DNA of 48,411 nucleotides, taken from assembly GCA_016192825.1 (NCBI GenBank), contig JACPTK010000013.1, positions 1 through 48,411 on the forward strand, given 5' to 3'. Below the pieces are notes generated by a model. That model saw only the letters and a list, made by a program, of their open reading frames with translations, searched no databases and was not told the origin of the DNA. The stretch is from Betaproteobacteria bacterium (GTDB lineage: Bacteria; Pseudomonadota; Gammaproteobacteria; Burkholderiales; SG8-41). Below are positions 141-47,320 of the stretch, one piece after another (the first letter of the stretch is position 1; the number at the start of each line of letters is the position of its first letter). Both the position numbers and the translations under genes were made by a program.

Positions 141-175
141 TCATCCCTCATCCCTCATCCCTCATCCCTCATCCT
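141..175. repeat. Heptamer array TCATCCC x5
   Basis: Five tandem copies of TCATCCC, the last ending in T, lie 26 bases upstream of the tsaE start. This is one of the 7-base-period arrays that recur at gene borders across the window. Confidence 0.9.
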
Positions 176-201
176 TATGTCATTTCCATGATAATGCGCC
201 G

Positions 202-663
202 ATGCCCTTGCTGACCCGATATCTTCCTGAAGAGGCCGACACCCTCGCCTTCGGCTCGGCGTTGGCCTTCTGCCTCAAGCCCGGGCTGGTGATTTACCTC
301 ATCGGCGAGCTGGGGGCGGGCAAAACCACCCTCGCCCGGGGCATCCTCCGGGGCCTCGGCCACACCGGCAAGGTGAAAAGCCCCTCCTTCGCCCTGGTTG
401 AACCTTATACGTTTTCTAGGTTATACTTGTATCACTTTGATTTTTATCGGTTCATGAAACCGAGAGAACTCGAAGAAGCCGGGTTCCGGGAGTACTTCAG
501 GCCCGACTCGGTGTGCCTCGTGGAGTGGCCCGAAAACGCGGCGGGGTTGCTGCCCGCGGCGGACATAAGAATCACGATGACAGTACAAGGCTCGGGGAGA
601 CAGCTGGAGATAGACGCCGACACGGAGGTTGGCAGGCGTTGTTTAAAGCAACTGATTCGGTAG
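202..663 (+). CDS. tsaE: tRNA threonylcarbamoyladenosine biosynthesis ATPase TsaE
   Basis: TsaE is the small P-loop ATPase that works with TsaB and TsaD to make the t6A modification at position 37 of ANN-decoding tRNAs in the cytoplasm. The 153-residue length equals that of the E. coli protein. The Walker A motif GELGAGKTT is at residues 35-43, SPSF follows at 60-63, and the family motifs HFDFYR (78-83) and VEWPE (107-111) are present. The ATG at 202 gives the expected N-terminus. The amidase gene downstream probably starts inside the end of this gene, so the two are likely co-transcribed and coupled, a common arrangement in Betaproteobacteria. Confidence 0.95.
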   Translation: MPLLTRYLPEEADTLAFGSALAFCLKPGLVIYLIGELGAGKTTLARGILRGLGHTGKVKSPSFALVEPYTFSRLYLYHFDFYRFMKPRELEEAGFREYFRPDSVCLVEWPENAAGLLPAADIRITMTVQGSGRQLEIDADTEVGRRCLKQLIR

Positions 664-1970
664 TCCCCCAGCGCGGCCGCGCTTACGCACGGCCCTCACT
701 TCTCTTCGCCGTTTTTTCCCTCGCCGTCTCGCTCCTCGCGGGCGGAATCGCGCCCGTGCTGGCGCAACTCACCCACATCACTTCGGCTCGCGTGTGGCCG
801 GCGCAGGATTACACCCGCGTCACGCTCGAGACCCAGACGCCGGTCCGATTCACGGTGCTGAGCGTGAAGGATCCCGAGCGCCTGGTGCTCGACCTCGAGG
901 GCGTGGAGATCACCGCCGCGCTCACGAGCCTCGCCGAGAAGATCGGCGCCGACGATCCCTACATCAAGGGCATGCGCACCGGGCGCTACAAGCCCGGCGT
1001 GACACGGGTGGTGTTCGACCTCAAGGGCGAGGTGCGGCCGCAGGCGTTCACGCTGGCGCCGGTCGGCGACTACGGCCACCGCCTCGTGCTCGACCTCTAC
1101 CCGGTCGTGCCGAACGATCCCCTGCTCGCCTTCCTCGACCGCATCCAGGCGGAGCGCGCAGCGCAGCCGGCGCCCCCGGCGGCGCCCGAACCTGAGCCGC
1201 GGGCGGCGCCCGAGCCCGCTGCGCGCCCCGCGCCCGGGCGGCCCGCGGTGGCGCGGCTCATCATCGTCGCGGTGGACGCCGGGCACGGCGGCGAGGACCC
1301 GGGCGCGACGGGCCGCGGCGGCACCTACGAGAAGAACATCACCCTCTCGATCGCGAAGAAGCTGAAGGCCCGCATCGACCAGGAGTCCAATATGCGCGCC
1401 TTCCTCACCCGCGACAGCGATTACTATATCCCGCTGCACACGCGGGTGGCGAAGGCGCGGCGCGTGCGCGCGGACCTCTTCGTCTCGATCCACGCCGACG
1501 CGTTCATCCGCCCTCACGCGCGCGGCTCGTCGGTGTTCGCGCTGTCGGAGTCGGGCGCCTCGTCGGCGGCGGCGGGCTGGCTGGCGAAGCGCGAGAACGA
1601 CGCCGATCTGATCGGCGGCGTCAACCTCGACGTGCGCGACCCTTACCTCAAGCAGACGCTGCTCGACCTGTCGCAGACCGCAACCGTCAACGACAGCCTC
1701 AAGCTCGCGCGCGAAGTGCTCGCCGAGCTGGGCGGCATCAACACCTTGCACAAGCCGCAGGTGGAGCAGGCGGGCTTCGCGGTGCTCAAGGCGCCCGACA
1801 TCCCCTCGATCCTGGTGGAGACCGCGTTCATCAGCAACCCGGAGGAGGAGCGCAAGCTGAGGAACAAGGCCTACCAGGAGAAAATGGCGGAGGCGGTGTT
1901 CCAGGGAATCAAGCGCTACTTCGCGCAAAATCCGCCGCTCGCTCGCGACCGCCTTGTCCAAAACCCCTAA
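639..1970 (+). CDS. amiC: N-acetylmuramoyl-L-alanine amidase, AMIN plus Amidase_3 (AmiC type)
   Basis: This periplasmic zinc amidase cleaves the amide bond between N-acetylmuramic acid and the stem peptide during septum splitting. I chose a TTG start at 639 because GGAGG lies at 624-628 with a 10-base spacer and a signal peptide follows (hydrophobic residues about 20-41, cleavage near VLA-Q). The start overlaps the end of tsaE by 25 bases. Residues about 45-150 form the AMIN targeting domain. An Ala/Pro/Glu-rich linker follows, then the Amidase_3 domain from about 207. Zinc and catalytic residues are visible in DAGHGGEDPG, TYEKN, SIHADAF and VETAFISN. A longer in-frame ATG at 513 exists but would place about 42 non-conserved residues before the signal peptide. 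The product is clear; the start is about 70% sure. Confidence 0.93.
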   Translation: MFKATDSVVPQRGRAYARPSLLFAVFSLAVSLLAGGIAPVLAQLTHITSARVWPAQDYTRVTLETQTPVRFTVLSVKDPERLVLDLEGVEITAALTSLAEKIGADDPYIKGMRTGRYKPGVTRVVFDLKGEVRPQAFTLAPVGDYGHRLVLDLYPVVPNDPLLAFLDRIQAERAAQPAPPAAPEPEPRAAPEPAARPAPGRPAVARLIIVAVDAGHGGEDPGATGRGGTYEKNITLSIAKKLKARIDQESNMRAFLTRDSDYYIPLHTRVAKARRVRADLFVSIHADAFIRPHARGSSVFALSESGASSAAAGWLAKRENDADLIGGVNLDVRDPYLKQTLLDLSQTATVNDSLKLAREVLAELGGINTLHKPQVEQAGFAVLKAPDIPSILVETAFISNPEEERKLRNKAYQEKMAEAVFQGIKRYFAQNPPLARDRLVQNP

Positions 1971-1973
1971 TAG

Positions 1974-2068
1974 ACAGGATTTACATGATTTACAGGATTA
2001 GATCCAAACAAGAACCCCCAAGGATTCAATTATGTTTTTTGAATCTTGTTAATCCTGTTAATCCTGTC
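1974..2068. repeat. Nine-base-period inverted array pair, locus 1
   Basis: Three 9-base units ACAGGATTT, ACATGATTT, ACAGGATTA (1974-2000) face the near-complementary units AATCTTGTT, AATCCTGTT, AATCCTGTC (2042-2068). The arms could pair across a loop of about 40 bases. The left arm starts four bases after the amidase stop codon. A second pair of the same family lies at 36153-36251. Confidence 0.85.
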
Positions 2069-2112
2069 AATTGGGGTCTTGCTTCTGCGTTTAGCCGTAA
2101 CTGGGCTTTTGC

Positions 2113-2634
2113 TTGAGTAACATCGGCCTGAGTCCATTCCGGATCGTCGTATCCTGTCTATTCCTTCTTCTCGCGGTTTCTCCCGCTGACGCGGAAATCC
2201 TTGGCCATATCGTGTCCGTCCACGACGGCGACACGCTCACCGTGCTGGTCGAGCGGCGCCAGGTCAAAGTGCGGCTGGCGGACATCGACGCGCCCGAGCT
2301 GGGCCAGCCGTTTGGCAGGAATTCGCGGCAGTCGCTGTCCGATCTCTGCTTCGGGAAGCCGGCCGCGCTCGAGGTTCGCGGCAAGGACCGTTACAAGCGG
2401 ACGATCGCGCAAGTCACCTGTGCCGGCACCGACGCCAATGCCGAGCAGGTGCGCCGCGGCTACGCGTGGACGTTCACGCGCTACGCCCCCGCGGATTCGC
2501 CGCTCTTCGCCATACAGTACGAGGCTCGCGCCGCGCGCCGCGGCCTGTGGGCCGGCACATCTCCCGTGCCGCCGTGGGACTGGCGGCGGAACGGGCGAAA
2601 CCGGGTCGCCCAGGTGAAGCCCCGTGAGGAGTGA
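2113..2634 (+). CDS. Exported thermonuclease-like (SNase fold) nuclease
   Basis: The 173-residue protein has an N-terminal signal peptide (hydrophobic core around residues 10-22, cleavage near ADA-E) followed by a staphylococcal-nuclease OB-fold domain. Residues equivalent to the active site are present: DGDTLTV, the RLADIDAPE segment with Arg, Asp and Glu, and a later Arg in KDRYKRT. These support Ca2+-dependent phosphodiesterase activity in the periplasm or outside the cell. The TTG start at 2113 is the only in-frame start giving a complete signal peptide; its ribosome-binding site is weak. The gene is separated from the amidase by the nine-base arrays. A role in nucleic-acid scavenging is inferred. 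Confidence 0.85.
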   Translation: MSNIGLSPFRIVVSCLFLLLAVSPADAEILGHIVSVHDGDTLTVLVERRQVKVRLADIDAPELGQPFGRNSRQSLSDLCFGKPAALEVRGKDRYKRTIAQVTCAGTDANAEQVRRGYAWTFTRYAPADSPLFAIQYEARAARRGLWAGTSPVPPWDWRRNGRNRVAQVKPREE

Positions 2635-2650
2635 TAAAAAGTTTGCGGTG

Positions 2651-2700
2651 GGCAGTTTGCGGTAACTGCCACCTGACGTGACAGCTGCCAACTGCCAACT
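2651..2700. repeat. Inverted repeat and CTGCCAA heptamers between convergent genes
   Basis: GGCAGTT (2651-2657) and AACTGCC (2664-2670) form a 7-bp stem with a 6-base loop. Two CTGCCAA heptamers (2685-2698) follow and reach the last base before the pntB stop codon. The location between convergent genes would suit a bidirectional terminator, but no T-run is present. Confidence 0.65.
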
Positions 2701-4128
2701 TCAGCCCTTCAGCGCGACCAGCACTTCGTCCAGCATCTTCTTCGCATCGCCGAACAGCATGCGATTGTTCTCTTTGTAGAAGAGCGGATTGTCGACGCCC
2801 GCATAGCCGGAAGCCATGCTGCGCTTCATCACGATCGAGGTCTTGGCCTTCCAGACTTCCAGCACCGGCATGCCGGCGATCGGGCTCGCCGGGTCCTCCT
2901 GGGCGGACGGATTGACGATGTCGTTGGCGCCGATGACCATGGCGACATCGGTCTCCGGAAAGTCCACGTTGAGCTCGTCCATTTCGAACACGATGTCGTA
3001 GGGCACCCTGGCCTCGGCCAGCAGCACGTTCATGTGGCCGGGCATGCGGCCGGCAACCGGGTGGATGCCGAAGCGCACGTTGATGCCCATCTCGCGCAGG
3101 TGCTTGGTGATCTCGTACACCGCGTGCTGTGCCTGCGCCACGGCCATCCCGTAGCCCGGTACGATGATCACGTTCCTCGCCTCGCGCAACAGTTCCGCCG
3201 TCTCCGCGGCCTGGATAGCCACCACCTCGCCGGCCGGCTCATTTCCCTTTCCTCCCCCGCCGGCAGCCCCCGGGACACCGCCCTCGGTGCCGAAGCCGCC
3301 CGCGATCACGGAGAGGAAGCGGCGATTCATTGCCCGGCACATGATGTAGGAGAGGATGGCGCCGCTCGATCCCACCAGCGCGCCGGTGACGATCAGCAGA
3401 TCGTTATTGAGCATGAAGCCCGTGGCAGCGGCTGCCCAGCCGGAGTAGCTGTTCAGCATCGAAATCACCACCGGCATGTCGGCGCCGCCGATCGCCATCA
3501 CCATGTGTATGCCGAAGAGCAGCGCGATCACGGTCATCACGATCAGCGGAATCATGCCATCGGCCACCGTGTGCGTGTTGATGAAGTGCCAGCCGAACCC
3601 GATCACCACGAGCAGGCCAGCCAGATTGAGCCAATGGCGTCCCGGCAGCAGCACCGGCTTGCCGCTGATCTTGGCGGAGAGCTTGCCGAAAGCGATCACC
3701 GAGCCCGAGAAGGTCACGGCGCCGATCAGGATGCCGAGATAGATCTCCAGCTCGTGGATGGTCTTCTCGGCGCCCTTGAACGTCCCCGCCGCCGCCGGAT
3801 CGATGTAGTTCGCGAAGCCGACCAGCATGGCGGCGAGCCCCACCAGGCTGTGCATCAGCGCGACCAGTTCGGGCATCTGCGTCATCTTGACGACGCGCGC
3901 GGCATACAGCCCTATGCTGGCGCCGACCGCCATCGCCGCGATGATCCACACATAGCCGGCTGGCGTGATCTGCGGCCCGAAAACCGTCGCCAGCACCGCG
4001 ATGGTCATGCCGATCATGCCGTACAGGTTGCCGCGCCGTGAGGTCTCCGGATTCGACAAGCCGCCGAGGCTGAGGATGAAAAGGATCGTCGCCCCAATAT
4101 AGGAAACCGTTGCCAGGGTTGCAGACAT
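2701..4128 (-). CDS. pntB: NAD(P) transhydrogenase subunit beta
   Basis: PntB forms most of the proton channel and the NADP(H)-binding domain III of the inner-membrane transhydrogenase, which reduces NADP+ with NADH using the proton gradient. The 475-residue protein starts with about eight to nine hydrophobic helices (residues about 5-270). A Gly-rich linker (around [11 protein letters not shown]) follows, then a Rossmann domain containing [34 protein letters not shown] and the C-terminal [10 protein letters not shown] segment, all family hallmarks. It lies 12 bases downstream of pntA and is surely in the same operon. No defect is seen. Confidence 0.96.
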
Positions 4129-4140
4129 TGATCGTGCCCC

Positions 4141-5742: not shown

Positions 5743-5942
5743 GAATTCCCCCTTGTTAGCCGTCCGGATGGTGACAGTCGATAATGCCAGGGCGACCGCA
5801 AACGTGTTTCTCCGGCGCGCGTTTCCGCCGGAACACCGAAATTCATTTCGAAATGATCTCCCTGGTTCGCGCCGTCCCGTGCGCGGGCGGCGGAGGCATC
5901 GAAAGCATGACCGAAGAATAAATTTTTTAACGCGGTACCGGG

Positions 5943-5956
5943 TTGATCTAGATCAA
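5943..5956 (-). promoter_or_regulatory. Perfect FNR/Anr-type box upstream of pntAB
   Basis: TTGATCTAGATCAA matches the FNR/Anr consensus TTGAT-N4-ATCAA at all ten defined positions. A possible -10 element (TTTATT on the minus strand, 5922-5917) would place the transcription start near 5910, so the box would be centred about 40 bases upstream of it, the usual activating position. This leaves a leader of about 165 bases before pntA. Binding by an FNR-family protein is inferred. Confidence 0.7.
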
Positions 5957-5959
5957 TAT

Positions 5960-6799: not shown

Positions 6800-6885
6800 G
6801 TTTTTTTGAGTCCCTCAAAAAAACATAAAGGGAACTTATCCTGCATTCTCATTGATCAGCGCGCATCGGCAGCTTGATTGTTCTT

Positions 6886-6949: not shown

Positions 6950-6953
6950 TAAT

Positions 6954-7739: not shown

Positions 7740-7802
7740 TTGAAATTCTTCCTGTTGTCTCGGGAGGGAGGCCGCATTGTAGCAGCGGCGGGGCCGTGAC
7801 TC

Positions 7803-7885
7803 GCGGATCGCGGATGGCGGATCGACTCTTCCTCCCGATCGGGAGGGAATCGCAAGCCGGAACACCATCCGCAAACCGCCATCCG
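7803..7885. repeat. Inverted heptamer arrays GCGGATS / CCATCCG
   Basis: GCGGATC, GCGGATG, GCGGATC (7803-7823) face CCATCCG, CAAACCG, CCATCCG (7865-7885) across about 40 bases. The arrays fill the divergent gap between the aldolase and mutL. A related GCGGATS array occurs at 20063-20090. Confidence 0.85.
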
Positions 7886-7897
7886 CCAGCCACGCCT

Positions 7898-7903: not shown

Positions 7904-7909
7904 TCGGGG

Positions 7910-9660: not shown

Positions 9661-9838
9661 GTGACTTGTGACTGGTGACTCGTGACTAGCAAGAAGAAAC
9701 GCGCGCGGCCGAAGTCCGCAAAGAAAAGGAAATCCGCCGCGTCGCGCCGTGGCATGCCTTCCAGGCGCCCTGCGCCTGCGCCCTCGTCCCGGCCGGCGGA
9801 GCCGGTAACGCCAGTCACCAGTCACCAGTCACCAGTCA
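9661..9838. repeat. Inverted heptamer arrays flanking and inside the miaA 5' end
   Basis: Four units GTGACTT, GTGACTG, GTGACTC, GTGACTA (9661-9688) face four copies of CCAGTCA (9811-9838). The GTG proposed as the miaA start is the first codon of the last unit of the left array. The right array lies in the miaA reading frame. Confidence 0.88.
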
Positions 9839-10818
9839 CGGGCGCCGAGCCGCAAGCGGCGAGCCGCGCAAAATGGCCGCCGGCCATCTTGCTCATGGGC
9901 CCCACGGCGAGCGGCAAGACCGCGGTGGCCGCGCGGCTCGCGCAGTCGCTGCCGTGCGAGATCATCAGCGTGGACTCCGCCCAAGTCTACAAGGGCATGG
10001 ACATCGGCACCGCCAAGCCGGAAGCTGCGCTGCTGGAGCAGGCGCCGCATCACCTGCTGGACATCATCGAGCCGCACGAGAGCTATTCCGCGGCGCGCTT
10101 CCGGGACGACGCGCTGGCGCTGATGCGCGAGATCACCGAGCGCGACCGCATCCCGCTGCTGGCGGGCGGCACGATGCTGTATTTCCGGGCGCTCACCGAG
10201 GGGCTCAACGAGCTGCCGGAGGCCGACCCGATGATCCGGCTGATGATCGACACCATGGCCGAGGAAGGCGGCTGGCCGGCCGTGCACGCCCGGCTGAAAA
10301 GGGTGGACCCGGAGACCGCGGCGCGGCTCGAGCCCACCGACGCGCAGCGCATCCAGCGCGCGCTGGAGATCTACCTGATCACGAACCAGCCGATGTCGGT
10401 CCTGCTGCAAAAGCCGAAATACGTCTACTTTCCCTACACCCCGATCCGGATTTCCCTCGTTCCCAGCGACCGCGAGGTCCTGCACATGCGCATCGCCCGG
10501 CGCTTCGACGCCATGCTGGAGGCGGGCCTGGTGGAGGAATTGCGGAAGCTGCGCGAGGAGTACGCGCTCGAGACCGAAATGCCGTCGATGCGCTGCGTCG
10601 GCTACCGCCAGGCGTGGGAGCACCTCGAGGGCAGGATCGGCCTCGGCGAGCTGCGCGAGCAGGGTGTCGCCGCGACCCGCCAGCTCGCCAAGCGCCAGCT
10701 CACCTGGCTGCGGGCGATGGAGAACGTCACCGAGTTCGACTGCCTGTCCGAGGACCTCGCCGAGATGGTGCTCGAATACGTGCGGCGGGAACTCGAGGCG
10801 CAGCTGGTTGGCGGCTAG
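9682..10818 (+). CDS. miaA: tRNA dimethylallyltransferase with repeat-encoded N-terminal extension
   Basis: MiaA transfers the dimethylallyl group of DMAPP to A37 of tRNAs that read codons starting with U. The core is intact: LMGPTASGKT, DSAQVYKGMDIGTAKP, GGTMLYFRAL and CVGYRQAWEHL, ending near residue 378. The core begins only around residue 66, whereas the E. coli protein has about 15 residues before the P-loop strand. No ATG or GTG exists in frame between the right-hand heptamer array and the core. Translation must therefore start at GTG 9682 or ATG 9754 and pass through the array (residues encoded include TPVTSHQSPVTG). The extension is rich in Lys, Arg, Ala and Pro. It lies 35 bases after mutL. 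Confidence 0.92.
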   Translation: MTSKKKRARPKSAKKRKSAASRRGMPSRRPAPAPSSRPAEPVTPVTSHQSPVTGAEPQAASRAKWPPAILLMGPTASGKTAVAARLAQSLPCEIISVDSAQVYKGMDIGTAKPEAALLEQAPHHLLDIIEPHESYSAARFRDDALALMREITERDRIPLLAGGTMLYFRALTEGLNELPEADPMIRLMIDTMAEEGGWPAVHARLKRVDPETAARLEPTDAQRIQRALEIYLITNQPMSVLLQKPKYVYFPYTPIRISLVPSDREVLHMRIARRFDAMLEAGLVEELRKLREEYALETEMPSMRCVGYRQAWEHLEGRIGLGELREQGVAATRQLAKRQLTWLRAMENVTEFDCLSEDLAEMVLEYVRRELEAQLVGG

Positions 10819-10828
10819 TTCCCGCCGG

Positions 10829-10928
10829 GTGACTCGCGGATCACGGATCGCGGGTCGACGCTAAATCCCGCAACCTGCATCCGCCAGGCTCAACGAGCCA
10901 CGAGTCACGAGCCGCGACCCGCCAGTCA
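10829..10928. repeat. Mixed inverted heptamer arrays between convergent genes
   Basis: The left array reads GTGACTC, GCGGATC, ACGGATC, GCGGGTC (10829-10856). The right array reads CGAGCCA, CGAGTCA, CGAGCCG, CGACCCG, CCAGTCA (10894-10928). Two unit types that form separate arrays elsewhere are mixed in the same 7-base register. The arrays fill the gap between miaA and the convergent cNMP-domain gene. Confidence 0.85.
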
Positions 10929-10939
10929 CTGACATCGCA

Positions 10940-14099: not shown

Positions 14100-14122
14100 G
14101 TGACTCGTGACTGGTGACTGGT
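14100..14122. repeat. Heptamer array GTGACTS x3 upstream of xseA
   Basis: GTGACTC, GTGACTG, GTGACTG and a trailing GT lie 17 bases upstream of the xseA ATG. Read on the xseA strand the units are the complementary CAGTCAC type that precedes start codons elsewhere. Confidence 0.88.
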
Positions 14123-15201: not shown

Positions 15202-15621
15202 ATGAGATTCCGCCCGCGCGCCTTCCGCGAGGAGCCGGAGATCAACTTCATCCCGTTGATCGACGTGCTGCTGGTGATCCTGATCTTCCTCATGGTCACC
15301 ACCACCTATTCGCGCTTCGCCGAGCTGCAGATCAACCTGCCCACCGCCGAGGCCGAGCAGTCGCGGGACCAGTCCAGCCAGGTGGACGTCGCGGTGGACG
15401 CGCAGGGACGCTACGCGATCAACCGCAATCCGGTCGGGTTCAGCAGCGCCGTCGCTTTCAGCGGCGAGCTGCGGCGCGCGGCCGGGGACATGAAAGACCC
15501 GGTGGTGGTGATCAGCGCCGACGCCAACGCGCCCCACCAGTCCGTGATCAACGTCATGGAAGCGGCGCGCATCGCGGGATACGGCAAGATCACCTTCACC
15601 ACTCAAGCTGGAAAAAAGTGA
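15202..15621 (+). CDS. exbD: ExbD/TolR-family biopolymer transport protein
   Basis: The 139-residue protein has the expected short cytoplasmic N-terminus, one membrane helix (FIPLIDVLLVILIFLMVTTT, residues about 15-34, with the essential Asp in PLIDVLLV) and a periplasmic domain ending in GKITFTTQAGKK. It is the partner of ExbB, whose gene ends eight bases upstream. Its TGA stop codon lies inside the first unit of a GTGACTS heptamer array. The operon continues with lpxK after the paired array. Confidence 0.93.
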   Translation: MRFRPRAFREEPEINFIPLIDVLLVILIFLMVTTTYSRFAELQINLPTAEAEQSRDQSSQVDVAVDAQGRYAINRNPVGFSSAVAFSGELRRAAGDMKDPVVVISADANAPHQSVINVMEAARIAGYGKITFTTQAGKK

Positions 15622-15676
15622 CTCGTGACTGGTGACTGGTGTAAACCGGTTTTCGAGTCACGAGTCACGAGTCACG
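15618..15676. repeat. Inverted heptamer arrays between exbD and lpxK
   Basis: GTGACTC, GTGACTG, GTGACTG (15618-15638) face three copies of CGAGTCA plus CG (15654-15676). A 13-base arm, GTGACTCGTGACT, has a perfect complement in the right array. The left array begins at the exbD stop codon and the right array ends four bases before the lpxK ATG. Confidence 0.92.
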
Positions 15677-16875: not shown

Positions 16876-16877
16876 TC

Positions 16878-16966
16878 GGGAGAGCGTAAGGGCGGGAGAG
16901 CGGGAGATGGAAAACCCGTGTTCCGCCCACTTCCGATCTCACGACCTCCCGATCTCTCGATCTCCC
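16878..16966. repeat. Inverted 8-base-period arrays between ycaR and kdsB
   Basis: GGGAGAGC, GTAAGGGC, GGGAGAGC, GGGAGATG (16878-16909) face GATCTCAC, GACCTCCC, GATCTCTC, GATCTCCC (16935-16966). The right array ends exactly one base before the GTG start of kdsB. A related array lies at 47297-47320. Confidence 0.88.
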
Positions 16967-17722
16967 GTGAAATTCAGCGTCATCATTCCCGCCCGCTACG
17001 CCTCCACGCGTTTTCCCGGCAAACCGCTCGCGGACGTCGGCGGCAAGCCGATGGTGGTGCGCGTGGCCGAGCGCGCGGCCAGGAGCGGCGCCGACGAGGT
17101 GCTGATCGCCACGGACGACGCGCGCATCGCCCGCGCCGCCGCGCAGCACGGCTTCAAGGCGGTGATGACGCGCGGGAGTCATGTCTCCGGCACCGACCGC
17201 ATCGCCGAGGTCGCGGCGAAACGCCGCTTTTCCGGGGCGCGCATCGTCGTGAACGTGCAGGGCGACGAGCCGCTCATCGCGCCCGCGCTGATCCGGCGGG
17301 TCGCCGCCGGGCTGGCGCGGCACCGCGCCGCGGCGATGGCGACGGCCTGCCACCCGATCACCGACGCGCGCGAGCTGGCCGACCCGAACGCGGTGAAAGT
17401 GGCGCTCGACCGCGCCGGCTACGCGCTCTACTTCAGCCGCGCGCCGATTCCCTTCGCGCGCGACGCGTTCGCGCGCGGCATCTCGCGCGTCCCGCCGCGG
17501 CTGCCGGCCTATCGCCACCTCGGGATCTATGCCTACCGCGCGGGGTTCCTGCGCGTCTTCACGCGGCTCGCCCCCGCCGCTATCGAGCGGTTCGAAGCGC
17601 TCGAGCAGCTGCGGGCGCTGGCCCACGGCTACCGCATCCACTGCGCGATCGTCCGGGCGGCGCCCCCTCCCGGCGTGGATACGCCCGCGGACCTCCGGCG
17701 TTTATTGCGCAAGAGCAAATGA
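16967..17722 (+). CDS. kdsB: 3-deoxy-manno-octulosonate cytidylyltransferase
   Basis: KdsB activates Kdo as CMP-Kdo for lipopolysaccharide synthesis. The 251-residue protein begins with [21 protein letters not shown], the conserved nucleotide-binding start, followed by [24 protein letters not shown] and NVQGDEPLI, and has the [11 protein letters not shown]-like segment [11 protein letters not shown]. The GTG start at 16967 directly abuts the 8-base array and has no Shine-Dalgarno; a longer ATG start at 16907 would encode repeat-derived residues. It sits between ycaR and adk as in other Betaproteobacteria. Confidence 0.94.
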
Positions 17723-18654
<932 letters not shown>

Positions 18655-20056: not shown

Positions 20057-20062
20057 TAAAAC

Positions 20063-20144
20063 GCGGATCGCGGGTGGCGGATCGCGGATCCAGCCGGGTT
20101 CTTCGAGCTTCAGGAACACCACCCGCAAACCGCGAGCCGCGAGT
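20063..20144. repeat. Inverted heptamer arrays GCGGATS between pfp and hppA
   Basis: GCGGATC, GCGGGTG, GCGGATC, GCGGATC (20063-20090) face CACCACC, CGCAAAC, CGCGAGC, CGCGAGT (20117-20144). The left array starts six bases after the pfp stop codon. GGGAG just before the hppA ATG remains outside the arrays. Confidence 0.85.
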
Positions 20145-20170
20145 CACCGATTTAACCAAAGGGAGTTGTC

Positions 20171-22243
<2,073 letters not shown>

Positions 22244-22316: not shown

Positions 22317-22470
22317 AAGCTCGAAGCTCGAAGCTCGAAGCTCGAAGCTCGAAGCTGGAAGTTCGAAGCTCGAAGCTCGAAGCTGGAAGCTCGAAGCTCG
22401 AAGCTCGAAGCTGGAAGCTCGAAGCTGGAAGCTCGAAGCTGGAAGCTCGAAGCTGGAAGCTGGAAGCTGA
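22317..22470. repeat. 22-unit heptamer array AAGCTSG
   Basis: Exactly 22 tandem 7-base units of the type AAGCTCG or AAGCTGG (one AAGTTCG, last AAGCTGA) run from 22317 to 22470 and end five bases before the next start codon. This is the longest array in the window. The S position alternates between C and G without a simple period. Confidence 0.95.
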
Positions 22471-23365: not shown

Positions 23366-23423
23366 CTGCCAGAATTCGGCTGCCGGCTTCCAGCTATCAG
23401 CTTCCAGCCTGCAGCGTCCTGCT

Positions 23424-23507
23424 GGTAGCTGGTAGCTGGGAGCTGGGAGCTGGGAGCTGGGAGCTGGGAGCTGGGAGCTGGGAGCTGGGAGCTGGGAGCT
23501 GGGAGCT
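23424..23507. repeat. 12-unit heptamer array GGTAGCT / GGGAGCT
   Basis: Two GGTAGCT units followed by ten perfect GGGAGCT units run from 23424 to 23507. On the minus strand the parA stop codon TAG (23508-23506) overlaps the last unit by two bases. The array fills the convergent gap. Confidence 0.95.
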
Positions 23508-24564: not shown

Positions 24565-25086
24565 ATGGTCACGATCCGTCCCGAACAACCCCGTGACATT
24601 CCCGCCGTGCGAAGCGTGCACCAGTCCGCCTTCCCCACCTCCCTGGAAGCAGACCTGGTGGACCGGCTGCGCGCGAACGGCAAGGCCGCCGTGTCGCTTG
24701 TGGCGCAGGATGCAACCGGCATCGTCGGGCACATCCTCTTCAGCCCCGTGGCGTTCGATCCGCCGGCTCCCGTCGTGGCGTTCGGGCTGGCGCCGATGGC
24801 GGTAATGCCCGGCCACGAGAAGCACGGTGTCGGGCGCCGCCTGGTCCAGAACGGCCTCGCCGAATGCCACGCGCTCGGCGCCTGCCTGGTCGTCGTGCTC
24901 GGCGAGCCCGATTACTACGGCCGCTTCGGCTTCGAGCGCGCCAGCCGTCACGGCCTTCGCAACCAGTTCGGGGCGGAGGACGCCTTCATGGTGTTCATGC
25001 TGGATGCGGGCGGGCACCCGCCGCCGGGGGCGCTGGTGAAGTACGCCCCGGAATTTTCGGCCCTGCCGAAACGGGGTGATGCGTGA
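24565..25086 (+). CDS. GNAT-family N-acetyltransferase
   Basis: The 173-residue protein resembles the YhbS-type GNAT group. It has the N-terminal VTIRPEQPRDIPAVRSVH, a central beta strand with FGLAPMAVMPGHEKHGVGRRLVQ (acetyl-CoA binding loop GHEKHGVGRRL, residues about 84-94) and VVLGEPDYYGRFGFE, which is typical of this subfamily. The acceptor substrate is unknown. The TGA stop codon falls inside the first unit of a GTGACTS array. It stands alone between parA and the ABC importer. Confidence 0.87.
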   Translation: MVTIRPEQPRDIPAVRSVHQSAFPTSLEADLVDRLRANGKAAVSLVAQDATGIVGHILFSPVAFDPPAPVVAFGLAPMAVMPGHEKHGVGRRLVQNGLAECHALGACLVVVLGEPDYYGRFGFERASRHGLRNQFGAEDAFMVFMLDAGGHPPPGALVKYAPEFSALPKRGDA

Positions 25087-25105
25087 CTCGTGACTGGTGA
25101 CTGGT
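25083..25105. repeat. Heptamer array GTGACTS x3
   Basis: GTGACTC, GTGACTG, GTGACTG and GT start one base before the acetyltransferase TGA stop codon. The unit order C, G, G is the same as after exbD and upstream of xseA. No complementary array is seen before the convergent permease gene. Confidence 0.9.
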
Positions 25106-30167: not shown

Positions 30168-30241
30168 GCATGGCCTTTCCGTGTCGCGACCGGCATCACT
30201 CTAAACCATAAGCAAGGGAACGCGATAACGGTGGCGCTCAT

Positions 30242-30273
30242 CACCAATCACCAATCACCAATCACCAATCACG
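30242..30273. repeat. Heptamer array CACCAAT x4 between glpK and gpsA
   Basis: Four copies of CACCAAT plus CACG lie four bases from the glpK stop codon. Read on the minus strand they are GTGATTG units following a stop codon, the same sense orientation as the arrays after exbD and the thioesterase. Confidence 0.9.
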
Positions 30274-34519: not shown

Positions 34520-35032
34520 GTGAGCGCAACCCCGCGGTTGCAACTGCTCGCCGGTCGTATCGGCGCTGCGGCGAGGCTCGCGCCCGGTGAAATGGCGCGG
34601 GAAGTGAAGGCCGCACTGGGCGAAGCGACGGCCGAGCCGGGCTGGCTGCCGCCCGAGCGGCGGCGCGCGAGCCACGAGAACTACGCGCGGCACCTGCTCT
34701 ACGGCGATCCAGACGGCCGTTTCTCGATCCTCTCGATCGTCTGGGACCATGGCCAGATGAGCCCGATCCACGGCCATCATTGCTGGTGCGCCGTCGGAGT
34801 CTATCAGGGCACGCTCTGCGAGACCTACTACCGCGAAAGACCCTCCGGCGGGCCGCCGGTGCCGGCCGGCAGCACGCGACGCGACGCGGGCACGCTGAGC
34901 TTCGATCCGGCCGTCTCCGGAATTCACCGCATCGCCAACGCAAGCGGAGCCCTCGCCATCTCCCTGCACGTCTACGGCGTCGCCAAGGAAGCAATCTCGA
35001 CGGGCGTGAACCGGCTCTACCCGACAGCGTGA
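34520..35032 (+). CDS. Cysteine dioxygenase-like cupin
   Basis: The 170-residue cupin matches bacterial cysteine dioxygenase type I. The iron-binding motif PIHGHHCWCAVGVYQGTLCE (residues about 87-106) has the His-x-His pair, and the third His is in GIHRIAN. The conserved SLHVYG follows. The enzyme would oxidise cysteine, or a related thiol such as 3-mercaptopropionate, to the sulfinate. The GTG at 34520 is the best start; a 16-codon ORF ends in overlap with it (GTGA). The TGA stop codon falls inside a GTGATNN heptamer. Confidence 0.85.
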   Translation: MSATPRLQLLAGRIGAAARLAPGEMAREVKAALGEATAEPGWLPPERRRASHENYARHLLYGDPDGRFSILSIVWDHGQMSPIHGHHCWCAVGVYQGTLCETYYRERPSGGPPVPAGSTRRDAGTLSFDPAVSGIHRIANASGALAISLHVYGVAKEAISTGVNRLYPTA

Positions 35033-35113
35033 TGAGTGATTGGACTGATGCCGAATAGGCCAAATCAAATCGAACTTACTAGTCCACTCACCACTCACTA
35101 CTCACCATTCACG
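35029..35113. repeat. Inverted heptamer arrays GTGATNN / TCACYAY
   Basis: GTGATGA and GTGATTG (35029-35042) start at the cysteine dioxygenase stop codon. AGTCCAC, TCACCAC, TCACTAC, TCACCAT plus TCACG (35081-35113) precede the next gene by about 20 bases. Confidence 0.82.
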
Positions 35114-36152: not shown

Positions 36153-36251
36153 ACAGGATTAACATGATTAACAAGATTAGAACTAGCACCCAACCGGCAG
36201 CCCAGTTTGAATTTGTATTCGATCTAATCCTGTAAATCCTGTTAATCCTGT
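36153..36251. repeat. Nine-base-period inverted array pair, locus 2
   Basis: ACAGGATTA, ACATGATTA, ACAAGATTA (36153-36179) face TAATCCTGT, AAATCCTGT, TAATCCTGT (36225-36251). The family is the same as at 1974-2068, including the ACATGATT variant in the middle unit of the left arm. It ends 10 bases before the CoA-ligase ATG. Confidence 0.88.
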
Positions 36252-39841: not shown

Positions 39842-39848
39842 TCACATG

Positions 39849-39854: not shown

Positions 39855-39860
39855 GAGGCC

Positions 39861-40530: not shown

Positions 40531-40551
40531 TGATACTGAAACGAAGACAGC

Positions 40552-40974
40552 ATGGGCGAGACAAACATCGGGATCGAGAGACTGCAGGAACTGATCACCC
40601 GCGGGCCGTTCAACCGCTGGCTCAATTTCACCGTGCTGAAGAGCGACGCTGATGGCGTCGAGATCCGCGCGGCGTGGCGCGAGGAATGGGTGGTCAATCC
40701 GGATCGCCGCTACACCCACGGCGGCATCCTCGCGGCGATCATCGACGTGGCTGCCGATTACGCCGTCGCCGCGCAGCTCGGCCGGCCGGTGCCGACGATC
40801 GATGTCCGCGTGGATTACCACAAGGCGGCGATGCCGGGCGACCTCACCGCGAAAGCACGCGTCGTGCGCATGGGCAGCCAGTATTCGACCGCCGAGGCGT
40901 ATCTCTACGACAAGGATGGCGCGTTGGTGGCGAGCGGTCGCGGCACTTACTTCACGGCTTCGCCCAAGGCGTGA
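40552..40974 (+). CDS. PaaI-type hotdog thioesterase
   Basis: The 140-residue hotdog-fold protein contains YTHGGILAAIIDVAADYAVA (HGG and catalytic Asp region, residues about 55-74) and TIDVRVDYHKAAMPGDLTA, typical of PaaI/YdiI-like thioesterases that release CoA from aryl- or acyl-CoA esters. It could rescue CoA from products of the nearby CoA ligase. The TGA stop codon lies inside the first GTGATTC heptamer. Confidence 0.9.
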   Translation: MGETNIGIERLQELITRGPFNRWLNFTVLKSDADGVEIRAAWREEWVVNPDRRYTHGGILAAIIDVAADYAVAAQLGRPVPTIDVRVDYHKAAMPGDLTAKARVVRMGSQYSTAEAYLYDKDGALVASGRGTYFTASPKA

Positions 40975-41043
40975 TTCGTGATTGGTGATTGGTGATTCGC
41001 GAAAAAGCAAAACGCTTTAGACCAATCACTATTCACCATTCAC
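40971..41043. repeat. Inverted heptamer arrays GTGATTS between thioesterase and ubiX genes
   Basis: GTGATTC, GTGATTG, GTGATTG, GTGATTC (40971-40998) begin at the thioesterase stop codon. CAATCAC, TATTCAC, CATTCAC (41023-41043) face them across about 25 bases. Confidence 0.9.
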
Positions 41044-41082
41044 GCAGTTGGGCTTCAGTGTAGGATATAGCCTGATTTCATT

Positions 41083-41700: not shown

Positions 41701-41708
41701 GCGCCCCG

Positions 41709-43340: not shown

Positions 43341-43372
43341 TCCCGAAACTCCCTCTTCGGATTTTAGATCGC

Positions 43373-44368
43373 ATGCCCATGCGAAAAATCCGTGTGCACG
43401 TCGAGAACCTGCGCGCGCGGCCTGGCATCTACCACGTCACGCCCGAGCGCTGGTCTGCCGCATGCGCCCGCCACCGCGCGCAGGGGCGCCGGATCGAGGC
43501 GAGTTTCGGCTGGGACGGCGAAACGCTCGAGGACGCGTTGAAGGACGCGGAAATCGTGATCGGCTTGCGCAGCCGCCTCGGGCGCCTGGCCGAGCGGGCG
43601 CCGCGGCTCAAGTGGCTTCACGCCACGCTGGCCGGGGTGGACCGCCTGTTCCCGCTCGACTGGCTGCCGCCGGGCGCCGTGCTCACCAACAATCATGGCG
43701 CGCACGGCGTGAAGGCGGAGCAGTACATGCACATGGCCTATACGATGCTCAACACGCGCATGGCGGAGATCGCCGTCAACCAGCATGCGCGCCGTTGGCG
43801 GCAGGTATTCTCGCCCAGCATCATCGGCAAGACCGCGCTGGTTGTGGGCCTCGGCGACCTTGGCCAGGCGGCGGTCCGGGCCGCGAAGAAGCTCGGGCTC
43901 CGGGTCGTAGGCGTGAGCCGGAGCGGCAAGCGAGTCCCGGGCGTCGACACCGCACACAAGGGCGCCGCTCTCGACCGGTTGCTGCCGGCCGCCGATTACG
44001 TGGTCATGGCGGTGCCGCTCACGCCCGATACGCGAAATCTACTGAACCGCGCGCGCCTCGATCTCCTGAAGCCCGCCGCTGGCGTCATCAATATCGCGCG
44101 CGCGCAAGTCCTGGACTACGACGCCCTCGCCGGGAAACTCGGGCGCGGCGAGCTCACCGGCGCGGTGGTCGACGTGGTGGATCCGGAGCCTTTGCCGCCG
44201 GAGTCGCCGCTCTGGGAGACGCCCAACCTCATCATTACGCCGCACATCTCCTGCGACGACGGCGAGCATTACGTGGATATCTCGCTCGACTTGTGGTTCG
44301 CCAATTTCGCGCGCTTTCTGGAAGGCAAGCCGCTCAGGAACCGTGTCGACCCCCGCCGCGGTTACTGA
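43373..44368 (+). CDS. D-2-hydroxyacid dehydrogenase family protein
   Basis: The 331-residue protein is an NAD(P)-dependent D-isomer-specific 2-hydroxyacid dehydrogenase. The Rossmann motif is ALVVGLGDLGQAAVRAAKKLG (residues about 147-167, written in part: VGLGDLGQAA), followed by DYVVMAVPLTPDTRNLLN, NIARAQVLDYDAL and NLIITPHISCDD. The catalytic Arg/Glu/His set is only partly recognisable (RGQxV replaced by RAQVL), so the reaction may be divergent. ATG at 43373 is preferred; a longer frame overlaps ubiD. It follows the UbiX-UbiD pair closely and may act on its product or precursor. Confidence 0.88.
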   Translation: MPMRKIRVHVENLRARPGIYHVTPERWSAACARHRAQGRRIEASFGWDGETLEDALKDAEIVIGLRSRLGRLAERAPRLKWLHATLAGVDRLFPLDWLPPGAVLTNNHGAHGVKAEQYMHMAYTMLNTRMAEIAVNQHARRWRQVFSPSIIGKTALVVGLGDLGQAAVRAAKKLGLRVVGVSRSGKRVPGVDTAHKGAALDRLLPAADYVVMAVPLTPDTRNLLNRARLDLLKPAAGVINIARAQVLDYDALAGKLGRGELTGAVVDVVDPEPLPPESPLWETPNLIITPHISCDDGEHYVDISLDLWFANFARFLEGKPLRNRVDPRRGY

Positions 44369-44378
44369 GTGGAAAAGC

Positions 44379-44479
44379 GTGATTCGTGGATCGTGGATGG
44401 GGGTTCGAATCTGCTTTAGTCGGATAACCGCGAACAATCAAGCACGACACGAGCCACGAACCACGAGCCACTAACCACG
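44379..44479. repeat. Inverted heptamer arrays GTGRWTS / CGARCCA
   Basis: GTGATTC, GTGGATC, GTGGATG (44379-44399) face CACGACA, CGAGCCA, CGAACCA, CGAGCCA, CTAACCA plus CG (44443-44479). The left array begins ten bases after the dehydrogenase stop codon. Confidence 0.85.
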
Positions 44480-44497
44480 CTCTCCTCGCGTGCCGAA

Positions 44498-45415
44498 ATG
44501 ATGTCCATCGCCTCCCAGCAGGTTCCCGCAGCAGGAGAGCTGGTGCTGGACCACGTGGCGCACTTCGTGCCGCACATCGACGCGGCCAGCAGCGCGCTGG
44601 AGACGCTCGGTTTCACCCTGACGCCCTTCTCCGCGCACTCGCACCGTTCCGAGCCGGGCGGGCCGCTCGTGCCCGCCGGCGCGGGAAACCGCTGCGTGAT
44701 ACTGGAGCGCGGGTATCTGGAAATCGTCACGCCGACCGGCGACACGCCGCACGCCGGCCAGCTCCGCGCCGCGATCAAGCGCTATTCGGGCGCGCACCTG
44801 ATTGCGTTCGGCACCGCGGCACCCGAAGCCGATCACGCCAGGATCCGGAAATCCGGGTTCGATCCGCTGCCTCCCGTGTCACTCCAACGCCAGATCGGCA
44901 CCGAGTCGGGGGAAGGCACGGTGCGCTTTACAGTGGTGCGGGTGCCTCCCGGAACGATGCCCGAGGGCCGCATCCAGTTCTGCCGGCACCACACGCCGGA
45001 ACTGGTCTGGCAGGAGCGCTGGCTGGATCACCCCAACCGCGCGGCTGCCCTGACCAGCGTGATCCTGTGCGTCCCTGACGCGCGGGAAGCGGCGCAGCGC
45101 TTTGCGCGTTACACCGGGCTGCTCGCGCAGGTGAGCGGAAGCGTGTGGCGCATCGACACCGCGCGCGGCCGCCTGCTGTTTCTCGACCGCGACACCCTGC
45201 ATCGGCGGCTCGACGTCGTGCCGCCTTCCCTCCCCTGGATCGCCGGATATATGCTGGAGAGCGCGGACATCGCAGCGACCGGCGATTACCTCCGGAACGC
45301 GGGGGTGAGCGTGCACGTGCTCGGCAGCCGGCGGCTGATGGTGAAGCTTCCAGCGGCCGTTGGTGGCATCATGATCTTCGAGCCGAAAAGCTCGGGAGCC
45401 CTGAATTTCGACTAA
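44498..45415 (+). CDS. VOC-superfamily (glyoxalase-like domain) protein
   Basis: The 305-residue protein contains two vicinal-oxygen-chelate repeats. The first begins VLDHVAHFVPHIDAASSALE (residues about 16-35) and includes ERGYLEIVTPTGDTP; the second starts around TSVILCVPDAREAAQRFARY. His and Glu residues in these positions could bind a metal, as in ring-cleavage dioxygenases and glyoxalases, but no specific activity can be named. It sits in the catabolic region between the dehydrogenase and a small conserved protein. Confidence 0.8.
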   Translation: MMSIASQQVPAAGELVLDHVAHFVPHIDAASSALETLGFTLTPFSAHSHRSEPGGPLVPAGAGNRCVILERGYLEIVTPTGDTPHAGQLRAAIKRYSGAHLIAFGTAAPEADHARIRKSGFDPLPPVSLQRQIGTESGEGTVRFTVVRVPPGTMPEGRIQFCRHHTPELVWQERWLDHPNRAAALTSVILCVPDAREAAQRFARYTGLLAQVSGSVWRIDTARGRLLFLDRDTLHRRLDVVPPSLPWIAGYMLESADIAATGDYLRNAGVSVHVLGSRRLMVKLPAAVGGIMIFEPKSSGALNFD

Positions 45416-45473
45416 CGAGCTGTCACCCATTTCCGAAGGACTCAATTGAACGACCAACCCAGGAGAACGATTC

Positions 45474-45713
45474 ATGGCCAAAGACGAGAACCGGACCAAG
45501 GTGACGATCCTGACCAGCAGTTACCGCATCAGGGGCTATATCGACGTTCTGCCCGGCGCCCGGGTGACCGACTTCGTCGTCCAGGCCAAGGACTTCATCG
45601 CCGTGACCGATGCGGAGGTCTATGAACCCGAGCTCGGAGGCCGCCAGGTGCTGACCGCCCCGTTCATCGACGTCAACCGTGACCACATCCAGGTCCTGGC
45701 GCCGGCATCCTGA
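45474..45713 (+). CDS. Conserved hypothetical 79-residue protein
   Basis: The protein is mainly beta strand, with KVTILTSSYRIRGYIDVLPG, RVTDFVVQAKDFIAVTDAEV and a C-terminal INVNRDHI-like strand (FIDVNRDHIQVL). Small proteins of this pattern (LTSxYRIxGxIxxLPGxRxTD) occur in many bacteria without known function. CAGGAGA with good spacing supports the ATG. It lies 17 bases before the FAD dehydrogenase gene and is probably in its operon. Confidence 0.78.
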   Translation: MAKDENRTKVTILTSSYRIRGYIDVLPGARVTDFVVQAKDFIAVTDAEVYEPELGGRQVLTAPFIDVNRDHIQVLAPAS

Positions 45714-45730
45714 ACGTCATCCGCAGCCTG

Positions 45731-47296
45731 ATGATGCGGTTTGACGAAAGCTACGACGTCGTCGTCGCTGGATCCGGTCTTGCGGGCGGGATCGCCGCGA
45801 TCACCGCCGCCGACGCCGGCGCCAGGGTCCTGCTGATCGAGAAGTCCGAGGTCCCGGGCGGACTCTCGATCTGCTCCTACGGCGCGGTGCGCAGCGCGCG
45901 CGATCCCGAGGCCGCCTTCGCCTACCTCAAGTCGACCAACGACGGGCGCACGCCGGACGACGTGCTGCGCACGCTGGCCGAAGGCATGTGCAAGATCGAG
46001 GCTTACGTGCGCGATCTCGCGAAGATCAACGGCGCCGTCATCAGCACGTCAGTCGCGGAAGCCGCCAGTGCGCCGGACGACCTCTACCGGCGCCGCGTCG
46101 GGGCCAATTATCCCTTTCCCGGCAACGAGGCGTTCTATCACACCACTGTCGTGGACGTGCCTGGATTCGACGCGGCCAAGCACTATCCGTGGGCCAACGG
46201 CGCGCCGGGCGGGCCCAAGCTCTTCAAGATCATCCACGACCACCTCGCAAAGCGCGGCGTCGGGATCCGCCTTGCGACGCCGGCGCTGCGGCTTCTCGCC
46301 GATCCGGCAACGCGCGAGGTTCGCGGTCTACGGGTTGCCGTGAACGGCACCGAGCGCGCAATCGGGGCGCGCCGCGGCGTGATCCTCGCGTGCGGCGGCT
46401 TCGAGGGCAACGCCGACATGAAGGCGCAGTTCCTCGAGGGCAAGCCGGTTTTCAACGCCGCGGCGCGCACCAATACCGGCGACGGCATCCGCATGGCGCA
46501 GGACCTCGGCGCGGCGCTGTGGCACATGTGGCACATCCACGGCGCCTACGGCTTCCGCCACACGGACCCCGCCTACCCCTACGCGATCCGGCTCAAGCGG
46601 CACTCCGACTGGTTCCCGGGCGAGAGCCACAAGGCGAAGCTCAGGATGGCGTGGATCCTGCTGGACCAGTACGGCAAGCGCTTCATGTCCGAGTACCAGC
46701 CGTACACCCAGGACACGGCCGTGAGGCCCATGCAGCACTTCGACCCGGTCACGCAGAAGTTCCCGCGCAACCCGGCGTTCATGGTCTGCGACGAGAACGG
46801 ACGCAGGATGTACCCGCTCGGGAAAGCAACCTCCAACGACAAGGACATCCGCTACGCGTGGAGCGAGGACAACCTGAAGGAAGTCGAGCTGGGAATCCTC
46901 AAGCGCGCCGACACGCTCGAAGGGCTCGCGATCCAGCTCGGGGTCGAGCCCGAAGCCGTCGTGGCCAGCGTTTCGCGCTGGAACGAGCTGTGCGAGCGTG
47001 GCGCGGACGAGGATTTCGGCCGGCCCGGCGGCACCATGACGCCGATCCGCACCGCGCCGTTCTACGGCGCGCCGGTGTGGGCGACGCTATCCAATACCCA
47101 GGGCGGCCCGGTGCACGATGCGCAGTGCCGGATCGTGAATGTGTACGGCCAGCCGATCCCGCGCCTCTACGCCGCCGGCGAGCTCGGCAGCGCCTTCGGC
47201 CATCTCTACCTCTCCGGCGGCAACATCGCCGAGTGCTTCGTCACCGGCCGCATTGCCGGCCGCGGCGCGGCGTCCCTCGCGCGGTGGAATACGTGA
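45731..47296 (+). CDS. FAD-dependent fumarate reductase/ketosteroid dehydrogenase-like flavoprotein
   Basis: The 521-residue flavoprotein starts with the dinucleotide-binding YDVVVAGSGLAGGIAAITA and EKSEVPGG (residues about 8-45). It has RRGVILACGGFEGN in the middle and ends with TQGGPVHDAQCRI, LYAAGELGSAFGHLYLSGGN and FVTGRIAGR, the layout of the FrdA/Kst/urocanate-reductase superfamily. These enzymes oxidise or reduce C=C bonds next to carbonyls. No heme domain or Tat signal is present, so it is likely cytoplasmic. The substrate is unknown; a role after the UbiD step is possible. Confidence 0.9.
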   Translation: MMRFDESYDVVVAGSGLAGGIAAITAADAGARVLLIEKSEVPGGLSICSYGAVRSARDPEAAFAYLKSTNDGRTPDDVLRTLAEGMCKIEAYVRDLAKINGAVISTSVAEAASAPDDLYRRRVGANYPFPGNEAFYHTTVVDVPGFDAAKHYPWANGAPGGPKLFKIIHDHLAKRGVGIRLATPALRLLADPATREVRGLRVAVNGTERAIGARRGVILACGGFEGNADMKAQFLEGKPVFNAAARTNTGDGIRMAQDLGAALWHMWHIHGAYGFRHTDPAYPYAIRLKRHSDWFPGESHKAKLRMAWILLDQYGKRFMSEYQPYTQDTAVRPMQHFDPVTQKFPRNPAFMVCDENGRRMYPLGKATSNDKDIRYAWSEDNLKEVELGILKRADTLEGLAIQLGVEPEAVVASVSRWNELCERGADEDFGRPGGTMTPIRTAPFYGAPVWATLSNTQGGPVHDAQCRIVNVYGQPIPRLYAAGELGSAFGHLYLSGGNIAECFVTGRIAGRGAASLARWNT

Positions 47297-47320
47297 GATC
47301 GGGAGAGCGGGAGGTCGGGA
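47297..47320. repeat. 8-base-period array GATCGGGA
   Basis: GATCGGGA, GAGCGGGA, GGTCGGGA begin at the first base after the flavoprotein stop codon. The unit is the same type as in the left array after ycaR (16878-16909). No complementary array is seen before the transposase. Confidence 0.82.

Follow-up and report, generated by a model that had tools for sequence, protein, structure and literature searches.

Heptamer repeats have long been noted in bacteria, and the closest described system is that of Xanthomonas campestris and X. axonopodis, where 186 and 183 (GGGANTN)n repeats per genome conserve positions 1–4 and 6, mostly comprise four units, form 70 and 75 convergent inverted pairs, and are mostly intergenic (PMC4692102). 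They lie on average 28 nucleotides (nt) from the 5′ open reading frame (ORF) vs 160 nt from the downstream ORF, and 7–8% are found between divergent ORFs vs 16% between convergent ones. The repeats were explained by G-quadruplexes, with a function that the authors state is still to be found, and the same pages relate that the heptamer excess of bacteria has been tied to polymerase slippage. On plasmid pSM19035, the ParB protein with its heptad 5′-WATCACW-3′ is fully active only with four or more contiguous repeats (PMC9499535). Here, we analyzed tandem arrays in a 48,411-nt stretch of a Betaproteobacteria bacterium (GCA_016192825.1, JACPTK010000013.1; hereafter the window), which is one (C5) of the 123 contigs in a draft genome of 5.1 Mb, together with a further 60 stretches from that genome, 1.24 Mb in all. 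Many of these arrays form modules that sit at gene borders, facing inward and often paired across loops that are unlike each other between loci. Our favored explanation, to which we assign a probability of roughly 40%, is that they are tandem sites whose sequence is recognized, perhaps by a protein that advances in steps of 7–9 bp, and that slippage adds a second layer.

Period, word, and copy number

The further stretches were drawn from contigs of which many had been picked up for holding hits, so that densities are possibly too high, while the anatomy of the arrays should be little affected by this choice. Gene borders were set by a purpose-written, simple codon-usage gene caller. Arrays were scanned for all periods from 3 to 16, with the main counts at threshold 10 in 254.6 kb of intergenic DNA, period 14 being counted as 2 × 7 and period 16 with 8. 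Intergenic arrays numbered 220 at period 7 and 49 at period 14 (269 together), 26 and 9 at periods 8 and 16 (35 together), 24 at period 9, and 36 at period 15, and only 14 were found at periods 3–6 and 10–13 combined. Shuffled controls of the intergenic DNA yielded between 0 and 1.8 arrays per period and approximately 1.6 for periods 7 plus 14. In a first subsample of 448 kb (99.5 kb intergenic, threshold 14), 32 period-7 arrays were counted vs none in ten shuffles. The period-7 arrays that the first-pass annotation of the window had noted are confirmed, and their excess is far beyond chance. Coding DNA, about four times as much, held 22 arrays of period 7 and seven of period 14 at threshold 10, a count that may include false gene calls. 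The 364 arrays of base period 7, 8, 9, or 15 correspond to 294 per Mb in this possibly enriched sample, and at least one array was present in 238 of 741 gaps of at least 30 nt. An assembly artefact is unlikely, as like architecture occurs in other genomes, in a Thiobacillus denitrificans RG record, and in the published Xanthomonas genomes.

The commonest word was GTGANTN, with a GTGA consensus in 142 of the 269 period-7 arrays. Within these, neighboring units differed at G T G A x y z with frequencies of.005,.042,.008,.029,.281,.062, and.385 (384 cases); GTGA and mostly the T at position 6 are kept, and positions 5 and 7 are free. Over 176 arrays, the top two variable columns carried 0.92 of the differences vs 0.76 after row shuffling. 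Three or more GTGA at a spacing of 7 were found in 154 arms vs 11 in reversed sequence; among the other spacings from 5 to 22, 15 gave 36, 14 gave 35, and 21 gave 10 (the latter two partly overlapping heptads), and the rest at most seven. Copy number peaked at four (97 of the 154 arms), with three copies in 34, five in 14, and more in nine. The 97 four-unit arms are flanked by an A-rich stretch and GC in front and by GA behind. A typical module holds four copies of 7 bases, three to four of 8, or three of 9.

Many seemingly different units of the window have a common core, GTGANTN or GNGRNTS. Beside it, the same genome uses unrelated words (AAGCTSG, GGGAGCT, AAGGCAG, GGGATGA, the 8-mer GGGAGAGC, and the 9-mer GGATTWACA) and a separate 15-base family, CGTGACRTGRTNNNG, which makes up most of the 36 period-15 arrays, a few being unrelated (L086, L090, L186, L187, L203, L223, and others; L numbers denote individual stretches of DNA). 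The first-pass annotation had described a constant period with a changing unit. The restricted period holds, but the commonest units here are one family, and its fixed conserved and free positions indicate that the sequence matters.

The same positions argue against replication slippage alone, acting where intergenic sequence permits it and with a mutational bias to units of 7–9 bp, a reading that we consider very unlikely. Besides the published link between slippage and bacterial heptamers, two observations speak for a contribution. Longer arrays were more uniform, with differences at position x of.13 in 30 arrays of at least five units vs.352 in 112 shorter ones, and two stretches with matching close flanks (L104:11041–11115 and 17795–17837) differed in their 8-mer copies (approximately nine vs five), which together indicate that slippage is at work as a second layer. 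As the sole cause it is mostly refuted, since it predicts that all unit positions vary and that copy numbers scatter widely, neither of which was found, and it does not predict the four-copy mode, fixed variable columns, inverted pairing, inward orientation, and genome-wide common words. A telomerase-like end addition was also considered and set aside, as free columns inside arrays do not suit templated addition. The G-quadruplexes proposed for the Xanthomonas relatives are hardly credible here, because four GGG tracts occurred in none of the 154 GTGA arms and four GG tracts in 15, and yet the four-copy mode persists; a four-copy, inverted-pair architecture lacking G tracts weakens that explanation.

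Placement, orientation, and pairing

Arms read inward: the outer gene border was the nearer one in 122 of 148 placed arms, and the inner border lay within 20 nt in nine. Where the outer border was a stop codon (70 arms), the median distance was 4.5 nt with 54 arms within 20 nt, and where it was a start codon (78 arms), 29.5 nt. Within the 448-kb subsample, closeness on the stop side was in excess (at most 20 nt in 38 of 67 cases vs 34% under random placement), whereas closeness on the start side was not (17 of 59 vs 30%). The first TGA of the array fell exactly on the gene's own stop codon in 19 of the 70 arms with an outer stop. A translation stop in all frames, with one TGA per heptad, would fit GTGA words in this respect; it was rejected as a general explanation because GAAC-, AGC-GT-, and 9-mer words lack a TGA in each copy. 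Divergent gaps held arms about as often as convergent gaps (19 per 113 and 15 per 97, respectively), and codirectional gaps held 114 per 531.

Neighboring period-7 arrays were mostly inverted (54 of 72 pairs, with nine direct and nine ties), as were those of period 15 (11 of 11), period 9 (six of seven, one tie), and period 8 (five of nine, four direct). Among the inverted pairs, the left arm was the purine-richer one in 47/54, 11/11, 6/6, and 5/5 cases for periods 7, 15, 9, and 8. The median loop was approximately 40 nt, and 16 nt for 8-mers. The inverted pairs, the common core GTGANTN or GNGRNTS, and the four-copy peak are new beyond the first-pass annotation.

By pairing with each other, the two arms could form intercistronic stem-loops in RNA or DNA that would protect, terminate, or couple transcripts in the manner of repetitive extragenic palindromic (REP) elements or terminators. 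In a separate test, an inverted GTGA-type partner was found within 170 nt for 87 of 148 GTGA arms, compared with one in shuffles, and 69 of the 72 neighboring period-7 pairs, in any orientation, were folded with a mean dG of −50.7 and a mean z of −4.4. The closeness of arms to stop codons and the outer flanks AAA..GC and GC..TTT, which resemble a terminator base, also fit a hairpin. However, 61 of the 148 arms had no partner, and the core was kept similarly in single (64) and paired (78) arrays, so that a single arm seems to be self-contained. Position 7 paired no better within a gap (0.343) than between gaps (0.364; 27 pairs), divergent gaps were not avoided relative to convergent ones, and tandem repeats are unnecessary for a hairpin. 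The A-rich outer flank was independent of the transcription role (0.47 for upstream arms, 0.41 for downstream arms, 0.43 in divergent, and 0.37 in convergent gaps); an intrinsic terminator, whose T tract behind the downstream arm would follow the direction of transcription, was rejected on this ground. Overall, we judge stem-loops as the purpose of the arrays to be unlikely, though a serious alternative.

The loops showed no homology between loci, with seven hits (two of them one pair) among 61 loops vs two to four in shuffled sequence, and the loops of two related genomes, G016 (five loops) and G001 (16 loops), gave no hits in the loop comparison. A miniature inverted-repeat transposable element copied as a whole was rejected on the basis of these non-homologous loops. 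Comparison of the 60-nt element flanks gave 40 hits, without a shuffled control; the six inspected were either further arrays or records that overlap in a single region, and no conclusion was drawn. One clear copied insert was seen among the 61 loops, as those at L193:18654 and L203:7235 hold a common 39-nt palindromic sequence (TAGCAGCCTGTCGGA...), 97% identical. Loops between the 9-mer arms of G016 (L183:7616, L240:2311 and 16302) hold other inverted repeats as nested elements, such as TCATTGCGAGG..CCTCGCGATGA and a GGATTCCCGCCTTCGCGGGAATGACG palindrome, which are widespread intergenic repeats.

The window and its relatives

Within the window, the scan returned 17 arrays of period 7 or 14 at 15 places, the array at 44379 lying below the scan threshold. 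All 7-base arrays that the first-pass annotation had listed were found again, as were its 8- and 9-base arrays. Among the GTGA-type arms, a four-unit GTGACTN arm at 9661–9687 (+), with a stop codon 14 nt before it, faces a four-unit GTGACTG arm at 9811–9839 (−). A mixed GTGACTC/GCGGATC arm at 10829–10856 (+), assigned by eye, is followed by its inverted partner of GTGACTG/GCGGGTC/GTGGCTC units at 10896–10929 (−), and a GTGACTS arm at 14100–14122 (+) has divergent genes on either side. At 15618–15641 (+), the first TGA of the GTGACTS arm is the upstream gene's stop codon; with its partner at 15654–15676 (−) and a loop of 12 nt, both arms occupy most of a 59-nt gap. The upstream stop codon is likewise included in the GTGACTS arm at 25082–25105 (+), and a GTGATTG arm at 30240–30272 (−) has no clear partner. 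The weakest of the listed arrays is the left arm at 35029–35042 (+), in which only two GTGA units are discernible and the first TGA falls on the called gene's stop codon (by eye); its partner at 35084–35112 (−), of four GTGANTN units, is clear. A four-unit GTGATTS arm at 40970–40997 (+), again with its first TGA as the stop codon, pairs with 41021–41043 (−), and the GTGATTC/GTGGATS arm at 44379–44398 (+) with GTGGYTN units at 44448–44479 (−).

The GNGRNTS core appears in a four-unit arm at 7796–7822 (+; GCGGATS from 7801) with its partner at 7867–7893 (−), and in the GCGGATS arm at 20063–20089 (+) with its partner at 20121–20147 (−). Other heptamers are the TCATCCC array at 138–174 (−; purine strand GGGATGA), the AAGCTSG array of approximately 22 copies at 22317–22469 (+), and the GGGAGCT array of approximately 12 copies at 23421–23507 (+), which lies between convergent genes and has inverted GCTTCCA copies at 23386–23419. 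The 8-mers comprise CGGGAGAG at 16877–16902 (+), 1 nt past a stop codon, its inverted partner at 16933–16967 (−), and an arm at a stop codon at 47295–47321 (+). The 9-mers comprise three copies of ACAGGATTW directly after a stop codon at 1974–1999 (+), with the inverted partner at 2042–2071 (−), and ACAGGATTA at 36153–36179 (+), with its right arm at 36226–36251 (−).

The closest named relatives of the window pyrophosphatase, at most 78% identical, are mainly betaproteobacterial metagenome-assembled genomes. Dialects of relatives were read from samples of 218 to 250 kb of four genomes (G001, G003, G014, and G016; G000 is the genome of the window). In G001, 63 period-7 arrays were counted over 30 kb of intergenic sequence; 29 had four copies, and the words include, by eye, GAAC-, AGC-GT-, and GAGGA-type heptamers. 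G016 used 9-mers (12 arrays, 11 with three copies) and G014 8-mers (five arrays, four with four copies). Among arrays with a stop codon as the nearest border, it was at most 20 nt away for 132/170 in G000, 27/42 in G001, 9/10 in G016, 3/6 in G014, and 1/10 in G003.

Orthologous gaps were compared 114 times (45 own gaps, 11 relatives), with arrays in both genomes in 23 cases, in our genome only in 37, in the relative only in six, and in neither in 48. This co-occurrence corresponds to an odds ratio of 5.0 (p 0.001), or 4.9 (p 0.02) if both gaps measured at least 50 nt, from comparisons that are not independent. In none of the 23 joint cases, which cover 10 gaps, did both species have a common unit, in line with the changing unit of the first-pass annotation. 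Array pairs from different loci had the same unit in 10.1% of cases in G000 and 4.5 to 28% in the four relatives, and in 0 to 4.6% between genomes. The window gap 20057–20185 measures 129 nt here vs approximately 41 nt in G002 and 39 nt in G007, where the arm-loop-arm block is absent and the sequence before the start codon is similar. The gap 16876–16966 corresponds to a gene overlap of approximately 6 nt in G002 and holds other units in G001, G003, and G016. At 40975–41082, the arms follow the stop codon and precede a GTGTAGGATATAG-like stretch, which is kept in several relatives while the intervening part changes.

These presence/absence differences of whole blocks (20057–20185, 16876–16966) and the recurrence of units within rather than between genomes would also be expected from molecular drive, in which a word similar to an uptake signal or recognized by a transposase is spread by biased transfer, yielding dialects with no benefit per site. 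The DNA uptake sequences (DUS) of Neisseriaceae serve as a model, as they combine species dialects with intergenic inverted pairs (PMC3630211). We regard this as rather improbable: non-homologous loops imply that the blocks are not copies of one element, a target-site duplication was not apparent by eye at 20057–20185, the only site inspected, array positions overlap between species above expectation in the gap comparison, and DUS are not tandem heptads.

Beyond these genomes, (GTGACTS)3 was found in 14 of 60 relatives, our own included. Among 80 named loci around the pyrophosphatase gene, five hold eight period-7 arrays (threshold 13, coding and intergenic DNA pooled). In the T. denitrificans RG record (L049), one gap, from stop to start, is by eye such an element with a GAGAGNG word. 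Rhodanobacteraceae bacterium ZG21-1 (L065:14464–14549) carries a GGGCTTC/GGGCTGA array of approximately 12 copies, the last two positions of which vary. Viral contigs carry (GTGANTN)4 as well, in at least 120 stretches (L266, L271, L310, L317, L336, and L337 among them) and in some cases as inverted pairs; these stretches may be host DNA or proviruses.

Proposed recognition as tandem sites and comparison with known systems

The core kept in single arms and the lack of better pairing at position 7 within gaps suggest that the sequence itself is recognized, with one site per unit. Under this reading, each word would be one site for a putative sequence-specific recognizer that packs side by side on DNA and whose step would set the period of 7 to 9 bp. 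The first and fourth of four 7-bp sites would be 21 bp apart, which is about two helical turns of DNA, and four copies could be favored for this reason. The dependence of the pSM19035 ParB on four contiguous heptads (PMC9499535) is a precedent for such a rule. Differing words between species would mean that recognizer and sites change together, and slippage could afterwards lengthen some modules. The bound module would most likely mark or insulate the border at the DNA level. The first-pass annotation had proposed a length-measuring origin by polymerase slippage or by RNA or protein spacing; slippage alone fails on the four-copy mode, the position-specific variation, and the inward orientation, while the spacing of a putative bound protein is the best candidate.

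Several points weigh against recognition as tandem sites. Arm likeness was higher within than between gaps at position 5 (0.486 vs 0.319) and position 6 (0.676 vs 0.535; 27 pairs), a likeness also expected from a hairpin or from shared descent. The detection threshold inflates within-array conservation in part, yet it does not decide which columns vary. G003, of the same genus, had 12 arrays of periods 7–9 in 65 kb, no excess over its other periods, indicating that the system is dispensable. The co-occurrence in orthologous gaps was significant in no single relative, and the 23 joint cases came from 10 window gaps. (GTGANTN)4 was present in only four of 143 genomes of a class sample, our own included, so that the word itself is not widespread. 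Its backward control was not clean, with 39 vs 265 hits in our genome, 56 vs 0 in G183, and 47 vs 12 in G143, the backward hits being taken to be related or other heptamer words. The helical-turn argument suits 7 × 4 and less well 8 × 4 and 9 × 3, and the unrelated words beside GTGANTN in one genome mean that several recognizers would be needed. ParB of pSM19035 is a ribbon-helix-helix protein; Omega_Repress (PF07764), the sole family tried, was found in none of 21 genomes, where its control was likewise silent, so that this does not establish absence, and other ribbon-helix-helix families were not searched; no recognizer was found.

As a tentative and rather doubtful extension, these arrays could belong to a general bacterial system of border marks. 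It would consist of modules of approximately 28 bp (four 7-bp, three 9-bp, or four 8-bp steps), a fast-evolving packing protein, species-specific words, and an evolutionarily rapid replacement of whole modules at any given border, with the Xanthomonas quadruplex repeats as one dialect. The species-specific words resemble a recognition code under rapid change and not the outcome of random repeat growth. If a recognizer exists, about one-third of the sampled gaps (238/741) could bear such marks. What binds (GTGANTN)4 has become a testable question.

For an architecture with changing words, no description was found among the best-ranked open PubMed Central papers, subscription papers being outside the scope. 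The TAACTGA direct repeats of marine Beggiatoaceae are likewise intergenic heptamer arrays at gene borders (PMC4679880). The parS site of pSM19035 shares the contiguous 7-bp sites, and the reverse complement of WATCACW rotates to GTGATWW (PMC9499535), whereas parS is a plasmid centromere and the arrays here are genome-wide border sites. The DUS of Neisseriaceae, similar in their dialects and inverted pairs, are single 10-12-mers and not tandem heptads (PMC3630211). REP elements and bacterial interspersed mosaic elements (PMC2817692) are comparable in their extragenic position, inverted arrangement, and hundreds of copies, but in our genome each arm is a tandem array.

The closest match remains Xanthomonas, and the first-pass annotation, which had known conserved-unit heptamers from cyanobacteria, is to be corrected here, as Xanthomonas has the same architecture (PMC4692102). 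Our genome likewise shows the 7-base unit, the conservation of positions 1–4 and 6, the peak at four copies, the convergent inverted pairs, and the proximity to the upstream gene. (GGGANTN)3 had no match in two Xanthomonas loci of 22 kb each. In contrast to Xanthomonas, the word here is GTGANTN, with T as second base and lacking G tracts, several word families coexist with units of 8, 9, and 15 bases, divergent and convergent gaps are used alike, and the density reaches 294 arrays per Mb in a possibly enriched sample. Given that none of the 154 arms carries four GGG tracts, we file the repeats as a variant of the Xanthomonas-type architecture that falls outside the GGGANTN family.

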